The notes below the pieces were generated by a model. The model ran no database searches. It saw only the letters and a program-made list of their open reading frames with translations, and had not been told where the DNA came from. A stretch of DNA of 40,294 bases, taken from contig CANQUX010000016.1 in NCBI GenBank assembly GCA_947627155.1, positions 1 through 40,294 on the forward strand. The letters run 5' to 3'. Origin of the DNA: an uncultured Alphaproteobacteria bacterium. GTDB taxonomy: Bacteria > Pseudomonadota > Alphaproteobacteria > CAAHEQ01 > UBA3637. The position numbers were made by a program, and so were the translations under genes. Shown here piece by piece: positions 1 through 40,294 of the stretch; the stretch's first letter is position 1; each line of letters begins with the position of its first letter.

Positions 1-160
1 GTACGATTTTTGCAACACTTTTTTTTAAAATTTTGAAAAAAAATTTATTTTAAACGGAATTCATTGATTTTTCAGCTGTTTTTGAATGATAGATTTTAGC
101 CTTTTAAAAGCAAAAATTACCCCCGAATCCGCGTTGCATTAAAGGTACATTTAATTTGTG
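1..160 (+). repeat. Promoter-bearing repeat element, copy A (left end cut by window)
   Basis: This is the first of four copies of a ~170 bp AT-rich element. It begins inside the left inverted end (GTACGATTTTTGCAAC at 1-16) and ends with GCGTTGCATTAAAGGTAC (131-148) followed by a TTTAATTTGTGC end. The two ends are imperfect inverted repeats of each other (TGCAAC facing GTTGCA, each beside GTAC). Unlike the copies in front of the prepilin-like genes, the -10 position here reads TGTGCA instead of TATGCT or TATACT, so the promoter is probably weak or dead. It lies just upstream of the small-RNA unit rather than a gene. The repetition is seen directly; its nature (MITE-like element or regulatory cassette) is inference. 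Confidence 0.7.
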
Positions 161-187: not shown

Positions 188-216
188 TTGACATTGATTC
201 TTAATGCCTTTATACT
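188..216 (+). promoter_or_regulatory. Sigma-70 promoter of small RNA
   Basis: A perfect TTGACA at 188-193 is separated by 17 bp from TATACT at 211-216. This is the best promoter match in the window. It lies directly upstream of a folded, non-coding stretch that ends in an intrinsic terminator, which gives a predicted transcript start near 222. Confidence 0.8.
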
Positions 217-221
217 CAAAG

Positions 222-430
222 GCAAGGCAAGTGATGTGTGCCCCGAGGTGTGAGAACCTCTTTCAACAGTGTTCTTGGAAAAGAACAGATTTTCGCCTTG
301 TTTTTTTAATAAACAAGGCAAAAAATCGAACGACCGGAAGGCGGTAAAATAGCCTTTTGGTCAATATACTACGCTATACTTGTGAATAGTTGTTAACTTC
401 CGGTCGCCTCTCATCAAGGCGATTTTTTTT
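222..430 (+). ncRNA. Candidate small RNA of about 205 nt
   Basis: A strong promoter (188-216) and an intrinsic terminator (404-430) bound a stretch with no credible ORF or ribosome-binding site. Visible foldings are a GAGGT/ACCTC hairpin near 245-260, a GTTCTT/AAGAAC hairpin near 271-286, GCCTTGTTT (295-303) facing AAACAAGGC (311-319), and a perfect 10 bp pairing CGACCGGAAG (331-340) with CTTCCGGTCG (397-406). The last pairing overlaps the terminator stem, so the two structures may be mutually exclusive. The length would suit a 6S-like RNA or a trans-acting sRNA, but I do not recognise a family. I see none of the conserved SRP-RNA, tmRNA or RNase P motifs. The identity is unknown; that it is a transcription unit is well supported. 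Confidence 0.65.
404..430 (+). terminator. Intrinsic terminator of small RNA
   Basis: TCGCCT (404-409) and AGGCGA (417-422) form a perfect 6 bp stem with a 7 nt loop, followed by eight T residues (423-430). Confidence 0.85.
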
Positions 431-441
431 GAATATGCATC

Positions 442-612
442 AAAAAAACGTACGTTTTTTGCAACACTTTTTTTTGATTTTTTCAAAAAAAATTTAATGT
501 GAGGAAATTTTAATGCAATATCAAACGGTTATAAAGCGGTTATTTTGCCAATTTTTGAGGGTAATTTTACCCCGGAATCAGCGTTGCATTAAAGGTACGT
601 TTAATTTATGCT
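442..612 (+). repeat. Promoter-bearing repeat element, copy B
   Basis: This is a complete copy. The left end is AAACGTACGTTTTTTGCAAC near 446-465 and the right end is GCGTTGCATTAAAGGTACGT near 581-600. It shares the T-run/A-run core and the GGTAATTTTACC-like segment with copy A. Its right end is the promoter of the first prepilin-like gene, 24 nt before the start codon. The small-RNA unit is sandwiched between copies A and B, as expected if it was captured or bracketed by two element insertions (inference). Confidence 0.75.
584..612 (+). promoter_or_regulatory. Promoter of first prepilin-like gene
   Basis: TTGCAT (584-589), a 17 bp spacer containing the palindrome-like GGTACGTTTAA, then TATGCT (607-612). 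The same -35 and spacer precede the other two prepilin-like genes at 29395-29424 and 40213-40241. The conserved GTAC core in the spacer could be an operator for a shared regulator (inference). The ribosome-binding site AGGAAG lies at 625-630. Confidence 0.7.
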
Positions 613-636
613 ATTTGCATTGAAAGGAAGCGAAAA

Positions 637-2094
637 ATGAGCAATAAAATGAAGAAAAAACAAGTTCAAAATCAGGCGCAAGAAGGGCGCAGTATGGTTG
701 AAATGCTGGGCGTTCTGGCAATAATCGGTGTTATCTCAATCGGTGGCATTTCAGGATATAGAATGGCCATGAATCGATATCAAGCGAATCAAATCGCGAA
801 TGAAATCAATCTGATGCGTACCGATGCGAAAGTGAAAGCGGCGGCGCAGGTGACGGGAAAGTTGATGTTGGGGGAACCGTATGATTCGGGACATTTAAAT
901 TTCGGCACTAATTATGAAGTTGATTTTGATTTTATAGATATTAAATCGGAGGATGAAGGCGTAACGGAAGCGGGATATTATATAAAAATATCAGGCGTTT
1001 CGGCGGGCGTGTGTAAACCGTTGGTCACCTTGTTAAACGGCATGAATGAAACGGTTGCATTAAAGGTCAATGACGGGGAATATAGTGCAGATTCGAGCGT
1101 AGATTTCTGCACCGAAGAAAGCAATAATGCGTTAGAGGTAGATTTTTCGACAGAAAAGATAATCAGTAATAGCGGAGAGGAACCGGAACCGCCGGAAGAA
1201 CAAGGCGATGAGCCGCAAGACCCGGAATGCAATGAGGATACCTGCCCGGAAGGAACGTGCAACGATGAAGGAGTGTGTGAATGTTCGGGAGAAAATGAGA
1301 ATTGGACGGGAACGGATTGCATCACATGTCCGACGGGAACAACGTGGAGTGAAACGGAAAGAGACTGCGTGTGTTCAGATGAAAATAAATATTGGACAGG
1401 CTATCAATGTGTAACGTGTGATGCCAGCACCGGCGGCACATGGGACGAAGAAAACAAGGAATGCAAGTGTAATGATGAGAACAAATATTGGAGCGATTCG
1501 GCCGGAGCATGCATTGAAAACCCGTGTAATCATGGGCAAGGGTGCCCTGTAAATCAATTTTGTTTGAGCAGCACTTGTAGTGGATGTAGCAGCGGTACAA
1601 TCACCGAGAGTTGCAGCAAATATGAATGTAAGTCGATATCAGAGTACACAGCAGAAAACAAGGATAGTGAACACCCGGATAAATATGTGATGACGAAGGA
1701 TGGTAAGTATATGAATTGGTGGAGTGCAGAGCGGTTCTGCAATGCGTTAGGGAAGCATATGGTAAGTGCAACTGAATTAAAATGCAAGGATAGGTTTGGT
1801 GAGGATTTCGGGTATGGTAAGAGTAATACATGGTGTTATTGTCACAATGACGAGTCAGAGAAGACATGTAGGCAGTCTAGTACAAGTGAAGTAAGTAGTG
1901 TAATAAAGGCGTTAAGGAAGGCAGAGAACGGGACAGAGACAAAAGGAAATCACTCCTACTGGTTGTATGATGCATATGCAAACACAACTTCCAGTAAAAA
2001 TTCCTGCAACGCGTACTTCTTCTACCTCGGTGACGGTCAAGTCGTCAGCAGCGCTCGCAACAACTACGGCAGCTACTACGTCTTATGTGAGTGA
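637..2094 (+). CDS. Prepilin-like cysteine-rich surface protein with lectin-like variable C-terminus
   Basis: This 485-residue protein has a type IV prepilin-like N-terminus: a short basic leader, then G17|RSMVEMLG with Glu at mature position +5, then a hydrophobic helix to about residue 41. A pilin-type globular segment (about 42-175) follows. Next is an acidic Pro/Glu linker, then EGF-like Cys-rich repeats (about 198-320, motif D-E-N-K-Y-W plus paired Cys), then a C-terminal domain (about 340-485) of C-type-lectin-like appearance ending Y-V-L-C-E. Such proteins are normally cleaved by a prepilin peptidase and displayed at the cell surface; adhesion is inferred. Composition changes along the gene: codons for about residues 330-438 are AG-rich, and from codon 458 to 483, 20 of 26 codons end in C, unlike the rest of the window. 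That tail suggests a DGR variable region. The start is fixed by AGGAAG six bases upstream. Two paralogues lie at 27358-29367 and 38204-40186. Confidence 0.85.
   Translation: MSNKMKKKQVQNQAQEGRSMVEMLGVLAIIGVISIGGISGYRMAMNRYQANQIANEINLMRTDAKVKAAAQVTGKLMLGEPYDSGHLNFGTNYEVDFDFIDIKSEDEGVTEAGYYIKISGVSAGVCKPLVTLLNGMNETVALKVNDGEYSADSSVDFCTEESNNALEVDFSTEKIISNSGEEPEPPEEQGDEPQDPECNEDTCPEGTCNDEGVCECSGENENWTGTDCITCPTGTTWSETERDCVCSDENKYWTGYQCVTCDASTGGTWDEENKECKCNDENKYWSDSAGACIENPCNHGQGCPVNQFCLSSTCSGCSSGTITESCSKYECKSISEYTAENKDSEHPDKYVMTKDGKYMNWWSAERFCNALGKHMVSATELKCKDRFGEDFGYGKSNTWCYCHNDESEKTCRQSSTSEVSSVIKALRKAENGTETKGNHSYWLYDAYANTTSSKNSCNAYFFYLGDGQVVSSARNNYGSYYVLCE
1951..2094 (+). other. Candidate DGR variable region (VR)
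   Basis: The last 47 codons of the gene encode H-S-Y-W-L...Y-Y-V-L-C-E. From 2008 onward nearly all codons are NNC, dominated by AAC, TAC, AGC, GTC, GAC and TTC, and a GC-rich hairpin follows the stop (2122-2155). In DGRs, adenines of AAC-type template codons are mutated to any base, leaving NNC codons in a lectin-fold C-terminus next to a GC-rich end and a hairpin. All of these features are visible here. The reverse transcriptase and the template repeat are not in the window, so the assignment is inference. Confidence 0.5.
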
Positions 2095-27330: not shown

Positions 27331-27359
27331 AAAAGCGGACAGAAATGTCCGCTTTTTTT
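27331..27359 (+). terminator. Bidirectional terminator between gatB and second prepilin-like gene
   Basis: AAAAGCGGAC (27331-27340) pairs with GTCCGCTTTT (27347-27356) around a 6 nt loop and ends in seven T. The A-run on the other flank lets it also end the convergent gene, whose stop codon (27358-27360) overlaps the hairpin's edge. Confidence 0.88.
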
Positions 27360-29367
27360 ATTCTTTGCATAAAGCCTGTATATAAGTATGTTCCCCTTTC
27401 CAAGAATTGTATCGAATCCACTTGTTCTCATAACAGGCATGATATGCATGACATTCACCAATTGCTTCCAACCAAAAATGTGTTTGTGTGCCATTCGGAT
27501 CCACTGTTGCAAATTCACCGGTACTTTTTAAATCTTGCACAATTTTTTCTTCAATATCCGATTCCGTACAAAAGGAATCCGAATGAGTGCTGCAACCCAA
27601 CAAACTTCTTGTTGCCATTGGTTTGTGAAGGGCTTTACAAAACCGCTCGGCACTGCCCCATGTCATGACATGTTCGGAATAATAAAATTTTGAGGTCGGT
27701 AAATAGCCTTTTTCCGAATTAACATCAACGCACTTTCCGGAATAAGTCTGCGAATACGGACTGGGAGAAAATTCTTCACACAGCTGATATCTTAATGTCA
27801 TCATACAAAATTCTCCGTCCGCACAATCTTCATTACTGCGGCATTCATATGCATGGCATTTACCGTCGTTAACATACCATAACGATTTTGGCGGACACGG
27901 CTCGCACGTGTTTGTATCTGAATTGCAAACCGGATTATTTGTATCTTTTTCAATGCAATTTTGATTATTTAAGCATTCCACGCATTGATTGGTTGCGGTA
28001 TTGCATTTGGGCGTATTAGGCGTATCTGTGCAGTCGCTATCTGCCGTGCATTCCACACATTCTCTACTTTCATCGTCCCATACCTGATTATCAAAGCATT
28101 GAATGCATATACTTGCATTCGAGCAATGGTAACTTGTTCCTTTGGCTTGGCATTCCTCTTCCGTTTGACAGGTTGTGCATTTGTTTCCTCTGCAAACCAA
28201 CGCTTCTTCACAATCCCCACTTTCTATGCATTCCACGCAAGTGTTAGTATCCGTATTGCATTGCGGTTTTTCGGAATTCTTGCAATCAGCAGATGATAAA
28301 CATTCCACACATTCTCTACTTTCATCGTCCCATACCTGATTATCAAAGCATTGAATGCATGTACTTGCATTTGAGCAGTGATAAGTTGTTCCTTTGGCTT
28401 GGCATTCCTCTTCCGTTTGACAGGTTGTGCATTTGTTTCCTCTGCAAACCTGTTCTTCCGAACAATTACTGCTTTCTATGCATTCCACGCAAGTATTAGT
28501 TTCCGTGTTGCATTTAGGCGTATCAGAATCGGTGCAATCGTCATCTGCCGTGCATTCTACGCACTCTTCGCCGTTCCAAACTCCGCTTTCGCACGTCACG
28601 CATGTATTGTTTTCACAATATTGATTATGTTCACATTGATTATCTTCATAACATTTCACACATACATGCCGTGACGGGTCACAATAATGCGTGCTTTCCG
28701 ATTCGCAATCCGTATCTTCTGCACAAGCAACTAACTCCGACACCGCTTCCGCCGAAAATACCGCATTTAAAACATTTCCGTTTCCCGCTTCGCATTTTCC
28801 CGTCTCCGGATATTCATCTTTATTCACATTAAATGCAATTATATTGTTCATGCCGTTTACTAATTCCGCCAACGGCCGACAAACGCCTTCGGGAATGTTT
28901 TGCAACTCAATATAATAAGCATTTGCAACATGACACGATATATTTGAAAGCTCAACAGTTTCATCATCAGCCAAAGCGCAAGCAAAATCAACGGGATAAT
29001 CATCATTAAATTGAATATGTCCGAGCGTGGATTCACTAATCGGATCATAAGGCTCACCAAGGATTAATTTTTCCGTGCCTTGGGCAATTTTTATTTGCGC
29101 ATCAGTGCGCATGATATTCATTTCATGCGCGATTTGATTCGCTTGATAATAGTTCATCGCCAACCGAAACCCGACAATCCCCCCGATGGACAGAATAGCA
29201 ATAATGGCTAAAACGCCCAGCATTTCAACCATTGAACGCCCGCTTTGTGAGTGTGTTTTGATTCTGTTTTTCTTTCCTGCTTCCCCGCACATAGTTTGCG
29301 GTTGATTGTTTTGCATATATTCTGTTTGGGATTGATTTTTAAATTGTTTTTTTGATTGCATTGTCAT
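27358..29367 (-). CDS. Prepilin-like cysteine-rich surface protein, second copy
   Basis: This 669-residue protein starts at 29367 (GGGAG at 29375-29379); a longer reading would run back into the promoter. It has an N-terminal leader of about 43 residues, then the prepilin motif S-G|R-S-M-V-E-M-L-G and a hydrophobic helix. A pilin-like globular region follows, then a long Cys-rich stretch of repeats of about 30-45 residues (motifs C-N-T-x-T-N-T-C-V-E-C, C-Q-T-E-E-E-C-Q-A-K-G and C-I-Q-C). The C-terminal lectin-like domain has S-A-E-R-F-C-K-A-L and ends A-L-C-K-E. Two consecutive 84-residue blocks are encoded by a 252 bp direct repeat (28049-28300 and from 28301). The C-terminal codons are ordinary for the genome, unlike the NNC tail of the first copy. 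The N-terminal ~215 residues are nearly identical to the copy at 38204-40186. Confidence 0.85.
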   Translation of the reverse strand: MTMQSKKQFKNQSQTEYMQNNQPQTMCGEAGKKNRIKTHSQSGRSMVEMLGVLAIIAILSIGGIVGFRLAMNYYQANQIAHEMNIMRTDAQIKIAQGTEKLILGEPYDPISESTLGHIQFNDDYPVDFACALADDETVELSNISCHVANAYYIELQNIPEGVCRPLAELVNGMNNIIAFNVNKDEYPETGKCEAGNGNVLNAVFSAEAVSELVACAEDTDCESESTHYCDPSRHVCVKCYEDNQCEHNQYCENNTCVTCESGVWNGEECVECTADDDCTDSDTPKCNTETNTCVECIESSNCSEEQVCRGNKCTTCQTEEECQAKGTTYHCSNASTCIQCFDNQVWDDESRECVECLSSADCKNSEKPQCNTDTNTCVECIESGDCEEALVCRGNKCTTCQTEEECQAKGTSYHCSNASICIQCFDNQVWDDESRECVECTADSDCTDTPNTPKCNTATNQCVECLNNQNCIEKDTNNPVCNSDTNTCEPCPPKSLWYVNDGKCHAYECRSNEDCADGEFCMMTLRYQLCEEFSPSPYSQTYSGKCVDVNSEKGYLPTSKFYYSEHVMTWGSAERFCKALHKPMATRSLLGCSTHSDSFCTESDIEEKIVQDLKSTGEFATVDPNGTQTHFWLEAIGECHAYHACYENKWIRYNSWKGEHTYIQALCKE
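28049..28550 (-). repeat. 252 bp tandem coding repeat in second prepilin-like gene
   Basis: The block starting CATTCCACAC at 28049 recurs at 28301, a period of exactly 252 bp (84 codons). The first ~150 bp of the two units are almost identical on reading and the remainder has diverged. The in-frame period allows unit gain or loss without breaking the protein. Confidence 0.8.
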
Positions 29368-29394: not shown

Positions 29395-29424
29395 AGTATA
29401 CAATTAAACGTACCTTTAATGCAA
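29395..29424 (-). promoter_or_regulatory. Promoter of second prepilin-like gene
   Basis: On the minus strand TTGCAT (29419-29424), an 18 bp spacer with the conserved GGTACGTTTAAT, and TATACT (29395-29400). It corresponds to the right end of repeat-element copy C. Confidence 0.68.
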
Positions 29425-29570
29425 CGCGGTTTCGGAGGCAAAATTTGCCTTCAAAAGACAAAAAATCACCTCTAAAAAACAGTCGAAAAATCAATGAATT
29501 CCGGCCAAAATAAATTTTTTTTGAAAAAATGCAAAAAAAGTGTTGCAAAAATCGTACGTTTAATTTGTGC
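29401..29570 (-). repeat. Promoter-bearing repeat element, copy C
   Basis: A complete ~170 bp copy in minus orientation. Its distal end reads GTACGTTTAATTTGTGC at 29554-29570 on the plus strand, the inverted counterpart of the promoter-proximal end. The segments TTTTTGCAACACTTTTTTT and GGAATTCATTGATTTTTC are shared with copy A. The remaining 29571-29644 up to the M23 gene is AT-rich with nothing else recognisable. Confidence 0.75.
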
Positions 29571-38203: not shown

Positions 38204-40186
38204 TTAATGACACAACGCATGTCCGCCGTTTGGAATATCGTTACGAGCATTGCTATGCAAGTACGCATCACTGGTGCGATAATCATACGCGCTGCTATTC
38301 ACAAAAGCATTTCCCATCCAAATTTGAACCGCATAATATTTTTCCCTATCATGACCAAAAAGCTCTTTTAAATCTTTTGTTCGCTCCGAAAAAATACAAT
38401 AAGGTCGGTTACCGTTCCACCCGAGACCCGTAGCGGAAGTATTTGTTTCTTGATCGATGCAATTGACTATACCGTAATCAGCCATATAGTTTGTCGGAGA
38501 CCAATTCAACGGTTTATTACACTTTGTATCATCGGCATAATTTGCTCTTGCCGCACATAAGTGACAGGCATCAAACCATGTCATACTGTTTTGAGAACCG
38601 TAATACATTGTGCCATCCAGATTTTTAGAATGTTTCAATTCTGCCGCAACCGATTGACAAGAGCCGACACCGGTTTGTTCCGTAGTCGATGACGATTCGC
38701 CAAAATGGCAATACTTTCCGTTTTCACAATTTGCATTGACTTTGCACCCCGGCGCACATTTTGTTCCATCCCAAAACGAATTTTTAGGACACGCTTCGCA
38801 CTTGTTTATCTCTGTATTACAGTTTGGCGTATCGGGTGTATCCTTACAATCTTCATAAGTTACACACTCCACACATCCTTTTTCTTGTCCGCCCCACACA
38901 AGATTACTCGGACATTGAATACACTTATCTTCCTTTGAGCAGTGATAAGTTGTTCCTTTTGCTTGGCATTCTTCTTCCGTTTGACAATTTGTGCATTCAT
39001 TTCCTCTGCACACCAGTTCTGCCGAACAATTACTGCTTTCTACACATTCCACGCAAGTGTTAGTTTCCGTGTTGCATTGCGGTTTATTAGAATTTTTGCA
39101 ATCGGCAGACGATAAACATTCCACGCATTCTCTACTTTCATTGTCCCATACCTGATTCGCAGGGCATTGAATGCATGTACTTGCATTTGAGCAGTGATAA
39201 GTTGTTCCTTTTGCTTGACATTCCTCTTCCGTTTGACAATTTGTGCATTCATTTCCTCTGCATACTTGTTCGTCCGCACAATCTGTGCTTTCTACGCATT
39301 CCACGCAAGTGTTAGTATCCGTGTTGCATTTAGGCGTATCAGGATCAGTGCAATCGTCATCTGCCGTACATTCCACGCACTCTTCACCGTTCCAAACACC
39401 GCTTTCACATGTAACGCATGTATTGTTTTCACAATATTGATTATGTTCACATTGATTATCTTCATAACATTTCACGCACACATGCCGTGACGGATCACAA
39501 TAAGGCGTGCTTCCCGATTCGTCGCAATCCTCCACTCCTTTACATGCCTTTAATTCCGAAACCGCTTCCGCCGAAAATACCGCATTTAAAACATTTCCGT
39601 TTCCCGCTTCGCATTTTCCCGTCTCCGGATATTCATTTTTGTTCACATTAAACGCGATGATATTGTTCATGCCGTTCACTAATTCCGCCAACGGTTTACA
39701 AACGCCCTCGGGAATGTTTTGCAACTCAATATAATAAGCATTTGCAACATGACACGATATATTTGAAAGCTCAACAGTTTCATCATCAGCCAAAGCGCAA
39801 GCAAAATCAACGGGATAATCATCATTAAACTGAATATGCCCGAGCCGGGATTCGCTGATGGGGTCATAAGGCTCACCAAGGATTAATTTTTCCGTGCCTT
39901 GGGCAATTTTTATCTGCGCATCAGTCCGCATGATATTCATTTCATGTGCAATTTGATTGGCTTGATAATAATTCATCGCCAATCGAAACCCGACGATTCC
40001 CCCGATGGACAGAATAGCAATAATGGCTAAAACGCCCAGCATTTCAATCATGCTCCGCCCGCTTTGCGAGTGTGTTTTGATTCTATTTTTCTTTCCTGCC
40101 TTCCCGCTCACGATTTGCGGTTGATTGTTTTGCATATATTCTGTTTGTGATTGATTTTCAAATTGTTTTTTTGATTGTCTTGTCAT
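38204..40186 (-). CDS. Prepilin-like cysteine-rich surface protein, third copy
   Basis: This 660-residue protein starts at 40186, with GGGAG upstream. It has the same plan as the copy at 27358-29367: leader, S-G|R-S-M-I-E-M-L-G, hydrophobic helix, pilin-like region, Cys-rich modules and a C-terminal lectin-like domain. The first ~215 residues are nearly identical to that copy; the Cys-rich part shares its modules in a different order and number; the C-terminal domain is a different, diverged version (M-T-W-F-D-A-C-H-L-C to G-H-A-L-C-H). Two 252 bp units begin at 38865 and 39117. This pattern (constant N-terminus, shuffled middle, divergent end) suits antigenic or ligand diversification by recombination. 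No pilus assembly genes are nearby. Confidence 0.85.
   Translation of the reverse strand: MTRQSKKQFENQSQTEYMQNNQPQIVSGKAGKKNRIKTHSQSGRSMIEMLGVLAIIAILSIGGIVGFRLAMNYYQANQIAHEMNIMRTDAQIKIAQGTEKLILGEPYDPISESRLGHIQFNDDYPVDFACALADDETVELSNISCHVANAYYIELQNIPEGVCKPLAELVNGMNNIIAFNVNKNEYPETGKCEAGNGNVLNAVFSAEAVSELKACKGVEDCDESGSTPYCDPSRHVCVKCYEDNQCEHNQYCENNTCVTCESGVWNGEECVECTADDDCTDPDTPKCNTDTNTCVECVESTDCADEQVCRGNECTNCQTEEECQAKGTTYHCSNASTCIQCPANQVWDNESRECVECLSSADCKNSNKPQCNTETNTCVECVESSNCSAELVCRGNECTNCQTEEECQAKGTTYHCSKEDKCIQCPSNLVWGGQEKGCVECVTYEDCKDTPDTPNCNTEINKCEACPKNSFWDGTKCAPGCKVNANCENGKYCHFGESSSTTEQTGVGSCQSVAAELKHSKNLDGTMYYGSQNSMTWFDACHLCAARANYADDTKCNKPLNWSPTNYMADYGIVNCIDQETNTSATGLGWNGNRPYCIFSERTKDLKELFGHDREKYYAVQIWMGNAFVNSSAYDYRTSDAYLHSNARNDIPNGGHALCH
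38865..39368 (-). repeat. 252 bp tandem coding repeat in third prepilin-like gene
   Basis: Units starting CACTCCACAC at 38865 and CATTCCACGC at 39117 are 252 bp apart, the same period as in the second prepilin-like gene, with long runs of identity such as the segment encoding C-Q-T-E-E-E-C-Q-A-K-G-T-T-Y-H-C. Confidence 0.75.
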
Positions 40187-40212: not shown

Positions 40213-40241
40213 AGCATAAAATAAACGTACCTTTAATGCAA
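40213..40241 (-). promoter_or_regulatory. Promoter of third prepilin-like gene
   Basis: On the minus strand TTGCAT (40236-40241), a 17 bp spacer with GGTACGTTTA, and TATGCT (40213-40218): same -35, spacer and -10 as the first prepilin-like gene. Confidence 0.68.
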
Positions 40242-40294
40242 CGCGGTTTTCGGGGCAAAAATTGCCTTCAAAAGGCCAAAATTTACCATTCAAA
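40219..40294 (-). repeat. Promoter-bearing repeat element, copy D (cut by window end)
   Basis: The promoter-proximal ~75 bp of the element is present (plus-strand AAACGTACCTTTAATGCAAC at 40223-40242, then GGGGCAAAAATTGCCTTC), closely matching copy C. The distal inverted end lies beyond the window. Confidence 0.7.

Follow-up and report, generated by a model that had tools for sequence, protein, structure and literature searches.

About ninety putatively invertible split promoters, most of them beside pilin-like genes, in a gut alphaproteobacterium that encodes Mpi-family invertases

Promoter inversion of the Mpi type is best known in Bacteroides. The serine recombinase Mpi of Bacteroides fragilis is described as inverting 13 regions, seven of which are capsule promoters (PMC4747536, PMC5903667), and in Mycoplasma penetrans most of the 38 genes of the mpl/P35 family are thought to be switched by adjacent invertible promoters, with MYPE8180 and MYPE2900 as the proposed recombinases (PMC2268961). 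The Mpi regulon and the mpl genes are the closest known systems to the one considered here. MYPE8180 and MYPE2900 are tyrosine recombinases, and Hin-type enzymes need matching central dinucleotides. The Correia elements of Neisseria are repeats of about 150 bp with terminal inverted repeats and outward promoters, and are classed as MITEs with target duplications. Hin is described as cleaving all strands, after which a 180-degree rotation follows (PMC3798978). A PhaseFinder-type survey of gut bacteria gives up to 181 invertons per genome, in Mitsuokella multacida, and groups of 2 to 72 (PMC11892184); the word Proteobacteria is absent from the text of that paper, and a literature search (open-licence PMC papers) for invertons or phase variation in Alphaproteobacteria showed nothing on the present lineage.

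The window, that is, the whole stretch of DNA analyzed here, comprises positions 1 to 40,294 of contig C16 (CANQUX010000016.1) in the 1.56 Mb genome of an uncultured gut alphaproteobacterium (GCA_947627155.1, lineage UBA3637; G000, or the own genome, below). It carries several copies of a short repeat, each of which we hold, at a probability of about 0.87, to be an invertible promoter segment (inverton) that has ends like those of serine-invertase substrates and is flipped by a serine recombinase of the Mpi family. Judged from sequence, this would be an extraordinary case of a mechanism of known kind, with about ninety invertible split promoters and several Mpi-family invertases in one genome, and related arrays in congeners. 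All genomes compared are unfinished MAGs. With P and Q denoting the left and right arms of a segment, the features of the window are as follows.

1..148, + strand: putative invertible segment A; the contig begins exactly at the first base of its left core, and no -10 is present in the flank that its right (Q) end faces
188..432, + strand: upstream leader directly before segment B, with a promoter-like TTGACA-17-TATACT and an intrinsic-terminator-like end (both predicted from sequence)
439..465, + strand: predicted P-arm recombination site of B, on the distal side, with its TA centre at 451-452
450..598, + strand: putative invertible segment B of 149 bp, in the majority orientation, with the Q arm facing the pilin-like gene
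583..610, + strand: predicted Q-arm recombination site of B, on the proximal side; its TA centre, at 596-597, falls between the -35 and the -10
584..589, + strand: -35-like TTGCAT, within segment B
607..612, + strand: -10-like TATGCT, outside segment B, after a 17-nt spacer
637..2094, + strand: prepilin-like gene, 485 aa, with a C-type-lectin-like C-terminal domain
27358..29367, - strand: prepilin-like gene downstream of C
29410..29557, - strand: putative invertible segment C, with the Q arm facing its pilin-like gene
38204..40186, - strand: prepilin-like gene downstream of D
40227..40294, - strand: putative invertible segment D, only the Q-arm half, cut by the contig end

A preliminary description of the window had claimed four copies of a unit of about 170 bp. 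The four copies are all present (A to D), and its account of the TTGCAT, the spacer GTAC and the inverted ends is correct, but the unit measures 148 or 149 bp from GTAC to GTAC. A scan of the whole genome with the repeat ends, the check that it had proposed, gave matches far above chance: the right end, GTTGCATTAAAGGTAC, matched exactly 84 times and with up to three mismatches at 159 sites (18 for the reversed control pattern), and the left end exactly 89 times and with up to three mismatches at 111 sites (6 for the controls). From these, 89 full elements were extracted, in 61 stretches (the window and 60 others), with lengths of 148 bp (52), 149 bp (31), 147 bp (2), 146 bp (1), 155 bp (2) and 156 bp (1); four further elements are cut by contig ends (C3:60, C10:61127, C22:16450 and window position 40226). 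The other MAGs of the rabbit (Lapin) series yielded 88 elements. That all 89 and 88 are segments bounded by inverted repeats holds by construction, because they were found by their ends; when aligned, they have near-invariant ends, which are their most conserved columns, and a divergent middle. Because the ends are the most conserved part, the copies do not look like passengers of longer gene duplications without conserved ends, the outcome that the preliminary description had held would count against it.

Some of these elements lie in Lapin MAGs labelled Akkermansia or Gastranaerophilales (L209, L219, L223, L230, L266), probably on mis-binned contigs. Many contigs end inside or beside an element (window positions 1 and 40294; ends of C3, C10, C12, C20, C22 and C31), and C16 starts exactly at the crossover core; such ends reflect either breaks at repeats or mixed orientations in the sample. 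At C6:33438-41962 of G000, a tandem duplication of about 4.2 kb has three elements at its boundaries, and neighbours have either their right or their left flanks in common, a pattern suggesting that the unit was duplicated by recombination between elements. The window has no match in Rfam. The leader at 188-432 is highly structured (fold z -4.46) and precedes many pilin genes, and in L216 and L257 a pilin gene directly follows the leader terminator with neither element nor -10.

A prepilin-like motif lies within 700 nt past the right (Q) end in 75 of the 89 own elements (74 within 182 nt, one at 539 nt); four more elements, whose flanks show a pilin-type start, are followed by a contig end (C2:159445, C12:207, C20:209, C31:3229). 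The prepilin N-terminus itself has 91 matches in the own genome at E <= 10. Eight other neighbour genes were tested against Pfam, namely those of an ankyrin-repeat protein, two sugar/capsule glycosyltransferases, a group-1 glycosyltransferase, an arylsulfotransferase-like protein and three proteins with no Pfam match. What had been pictured as a cassette recruiting genes to one regulon serves a single gene family and a few other genes. The window proteins share the prepilin-like N-terminus, with PF07963 below cut-off in two of the three and absent from the third, and the pilin-like proteins have cysteine-rich stretches. For the C-terminal domain that a subset of them carries, the best of five models reached a pLDDT of 82 (the others about 55), and this model weakly matches C-type lectins and formylglycine-generating enzymes (best E 0.004, none <= 0.001).

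The putative -35 is TTGCAT in the Q arm of 85 of the 89 own elements and TTGCAA in the P arm of 86. A -10-like hexamer follows the -35 at 16-18 nt in 74/74 pilin-side flanks vs 0/69 opposite flanks of the same class, which is to be read as a contrast and not as 74 independent tests, because the flanks are related by duplication. The crossover site therefore divides the promoter, with the -35 inside the segment, the -10 outside it and the GTAC core between. Hence the earlier picture of a cassette whose right end brings both hexamers stands in part: the gene-side end gives the -35, the -10 comes from the flank, and the copy at 1-148 has no -10 on its right side, where its flank is of the gene-distal type of the other copies. 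A sigma-54 promoter (GG-N10-GC) fits copy B by eye and was rejected, copies A and C having CG at the GG position (judged from the window copies), as was a CtrA-type site (TTAA-N7-TTAA), the spacing being N8 in copy B and the outer TTAA being missing from copy D.

In the mechanism that we propose, two inverted sites of the serine-invertase type, each of about 26 bp and with a 2-bp centre (TA here) flanked by arms of roughly AAACG / CGTTT, would lie 144-145 bp apart in the own genome, and a serine recombinase of the Mpi family, presumably the enzyme acting here, would cut at the centres and turn the segment. Because the gene-proximal site would sit in the spacer, between the -35 inside the segment and the fixed -10 outside it, a flip would swap the -35 and its upstream sequence. 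The P arm, with its A/T tract and TTGCAA, is predicted to form a strong promoter, and the Q arm, richer in G+C and with TTGCAT here and no -35 in the congeneric genomes G001 and G005, a weak or OFF one; the A+T content of the 22 nt upstream of the -35 is 0.81 for P and 0.54 for Q in the own elements. The Q arm faces a pilin gene in 74 of the 89 own elements, the P arm in 2 (one with pilins on both sides) and neither in 14; the corresponding numbers are 58, 3 (one with both) and 28 for the 88 elements of the other Lapin MAGs. Among 44 elements of G001 and G005 there are 41 Q and 3 P, five further G005 elements divide into 3 Q and 2 P, and the 11 elements of G003 are all Q. Both orientations are thus found before pilin genes in four genomes, with one of them the minority. 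Most pilin genes would be in the OFF-like Q state and only a handful in P, the pattern of a phase-variable family of which few members are active at any one time, and flipping, at whatever rate it proceeds, would presumably serve to vary adhesion.

The sequence logic by which orientation would switch transcription of the next gene is clear in G001, G005 and G003 and ambiguous in the own species. In G001 and G005 the minority P-facing orientation reads TTGCAA-17-TACACT and the Q-facing one has GGGAAA and no -35, and the segments of G003 contain a complete promoter, TTGACA-17-TATTAT, directed away from the gene (read by eye). The own species has TTGCA in both arms, and for that reason ON and OFF are not readable there from the -35 alone; with P having the A/T-rich upstream tract and being the minority before pilins, we infer that P is ON and Q weak or OFF.

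One clean pair of loci presents the same segment in both orientations between collinear flanks, and does so between two species, not within a population. The own element at C6:41814 and its counterpart L263, from the Lapin-024 MAG of a sister species, have flanks 95.0% identical over 400 columns and 91.0% over 398, and the 148-bp element between them reaches 94.6% identity once it is turned, against 71.7% in its present sense. A single base next to the core departs from the exact inversion product (AAAG instead of AAAC). This pair (e34/e173), which has no same-sense match, was the only one used from a list of 139 'inverted' flank pairs, nearly all of which were judged to be adjacent divergent elements with common flanks or conserved pilin starts.

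Further insight into the ends comes from their centres. In G001 and G005 the sites read AAAGG-NN-CG and AAAGG-NN-CC, and where the centre at one end is GA, TA or AA, that at the other is always its complement. Complementary centres were found within the element in 44/44 cases (GA/TC 30, TA/TA 12, AA/TT 2), as compared to a mean of 23.8 and a maximum of 36 in 200,000 shuffles that did not keep relatedness, and the co-variation concerns one position, as only the first base of the centre varies. A first parse of the same 50 regions had given 46 elements, two of them non-complementary at spacing 130 (GA/GT in L433, TA/GT in L374), while the stricter parse gave the 44, with L374 now TA/TA at spacing 131 and the two lost elements outside the count. 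Another 5/5 G005 elements and 11/11 of G003 (TC/GA) are complementary as well, with 4/17 regions of G005 and 5/16 of G003 yielding no parsed element. By parsimony the centre changed 6 times in G001/G005 (on an unsupported tree), and the match would therefore have been re-made several times. In the own genome only two elements have non-TA centres, C1:53560 and C4:52976, and both are complementary, so that the two-base centres match within pairs, as serine-invertase sites should, in the own exceptions too (2/2).

A Pfam search (PF00239) of the own genome found six proteins, five of which have 197-235 aa and a C-terminal helix-turn-helix. These five match the NCBIfam 'master DNA invertase Mpi family' (NF009949), three above its curated cut-off of 272 bits (315.7, 289.3, 281.7) and two just below (271.4, 265.5), and among their relatives of solved structure are the gamma-delta and Tn3 resolvases as well as a DNA invertase (4m6f, 3uj3). 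Three of the five are encoded within about 1.3 kb of an element, a closeness that is suggestive only as a tie to the sites. The invertase on C5 has counterparts 74-95% identical in G001, G007, G008 and G009, while the proteins of G002 to G006 that were compared include no equally close one, and this type tracks the element in G000, G001, G007, G008 and G009; the exception is G005, which has elements but in which it was not found. The C5 protein is thus the first candidate for the enzyme that acts on the sites. The gene of the C13-type Mpi-family invertase has an inverted pair of sites upstream (L399:1929-2129 and L413; in L413 these are CG-TT-CG and CG-AA-CG, 143 bp apart), and may therefore itself be under an invertible promoter.

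That the same segments are turned by a tyrosine recombinase instead is improbable. The own genome does encode five PF00589 proteins, and the identity of the ends reaches a few bases past the dinucleotide, but each site is a near-palindrome with a 2-bp centre, the genome also encodes five Mpi-family serine invertases, three of them near elements, and a single contig carries four of the five tyrosine recombinases. The preliminary description had itself offered two other explanations. According to one, the repeat is a MITE-like mobile promoter that transposes in and recruits genes, which would accord with about 90 copies, with terminal inverted repeats and with the copies before non-pilin genes, as well as with L249, where a site without an element, AAACGTACGTTT, stands between flanks matching own C2:155686. 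The sequence at L249, however, equals what a deletion between two TA sites would be expected to leave. (As a probe for element-free sites, AAACGTACGTTTA mostly matched left ends with the outer flank TAAAC, and was dropped as evidence.) A target-site duplication had been suggested as a check, but no direct repeat was found: the changing core base is complementary between the ends, co-varying as in inverted repeats and not same-sense as in a duplication, and a MITE with GTAC as its duplicated target was rejected on the same grounds. Moreover, the AAAC/GTTT beside the core is kept at unrelated loci and therefore belongs to the unit, and no longer, transposase-bearing version that could be an autonomous parent was seen among the pattern hits in the own, unfinished genome, a search that was not exhaustive. 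We regard transposition as very improbable.

The other explanation, a fixed element with two operators bound by a looping regulator, whose differences in orientation would be rare accidents, draws on the GTAC in the promoter spacer and on a spacing that is nearly constant in the own clade (144-145 bp in the own genome, 142-145 bp in G007 and G008) while the interiors diverge. The spacing nevertheless shifts to 129, 131 or 155 bp in other species with the sites still paired, inverted copies are present in four genomes, orthologous loci carry a segment in opposite senses, and the genome encodes Mpi-family invertases; nor does a symmetric operator give a reason for complementary centres. This explanation is scarcely credible. 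Inversion by a Mpi-family serine recombinase remains the reading that we prefer.

A diversity-generating retroelement accompanies this gene family in relatives. Searches turned up reverse transcriptases in G001, G003 and G005 and none in the seven remaining genomes, the own one among them; loci of this type lie at L462 (G001), L464 (G003) and L463 (G005), each with the reverse transcriptase and a likely accessory protein, which we take to be Avd. In a pair of repeats near the reverse transcriptase of L464, 17 of 101 positions differ, and at 16 of these the presumed template has an adenine. The C-termini of the own pilins have variability at NNC codons, seen among 14 selected for a motif, which resembles that of a retroelement target. 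It is tempting to combine these observations, at somewhat less than even odds, into a two-layer diversity machine of the genus, in which Mpi-family invertases would flip some ninety split promoters, each with its own pilin-like gene and few expressed, and a retroelement, in three congeners, would rewrite the lectin-like tips of that protein family. Because nearly all own centres are the self-complementary TA, any two sites may moreover be able to recombine, yielding deletions, swaps and inversions.

Mpi-type inversion would thus extend across several species of a little-studied genus of gut Alphaproteobacteria, and the many parallel replicates of one switch in each cell would lend themselves to studying how the ON frequency is maintained at a low level. 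The array resembles the B. fragilis Mpi regulon in its dispersed invertible promoters before surface genes, its NF009949 invertases and its inverted-repeat ends, and differs from it in its host phylum, in having about 90 copies of one segment family before pilin-like genes, in a site that lies inside the promoter spacer so that only the -35 half would flip, and in having five invertases of the family. It has in common with the mpl genes of M. penetrans, an organism of an unrelated phylum with other recombinases, a large paralogous family of surface proteins with an invertible promoter for each member, although the mpl members are fewer than half as many. The size, terminal inverted repeats and outward promoters of the Neisseria Correia elements are matched here, in an element that appears to invert in place rather than to duplicate its target. 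As in the invertons surveyed in gut bacteria, the segments lie near surface genes, and about ninety would not be a per-genome record given the 181 reported for Mitsuokella multacida (PMC11892184), but unlike the surveyed invertons they make up a single homogeneous group, about 90 strong, within one small genome.
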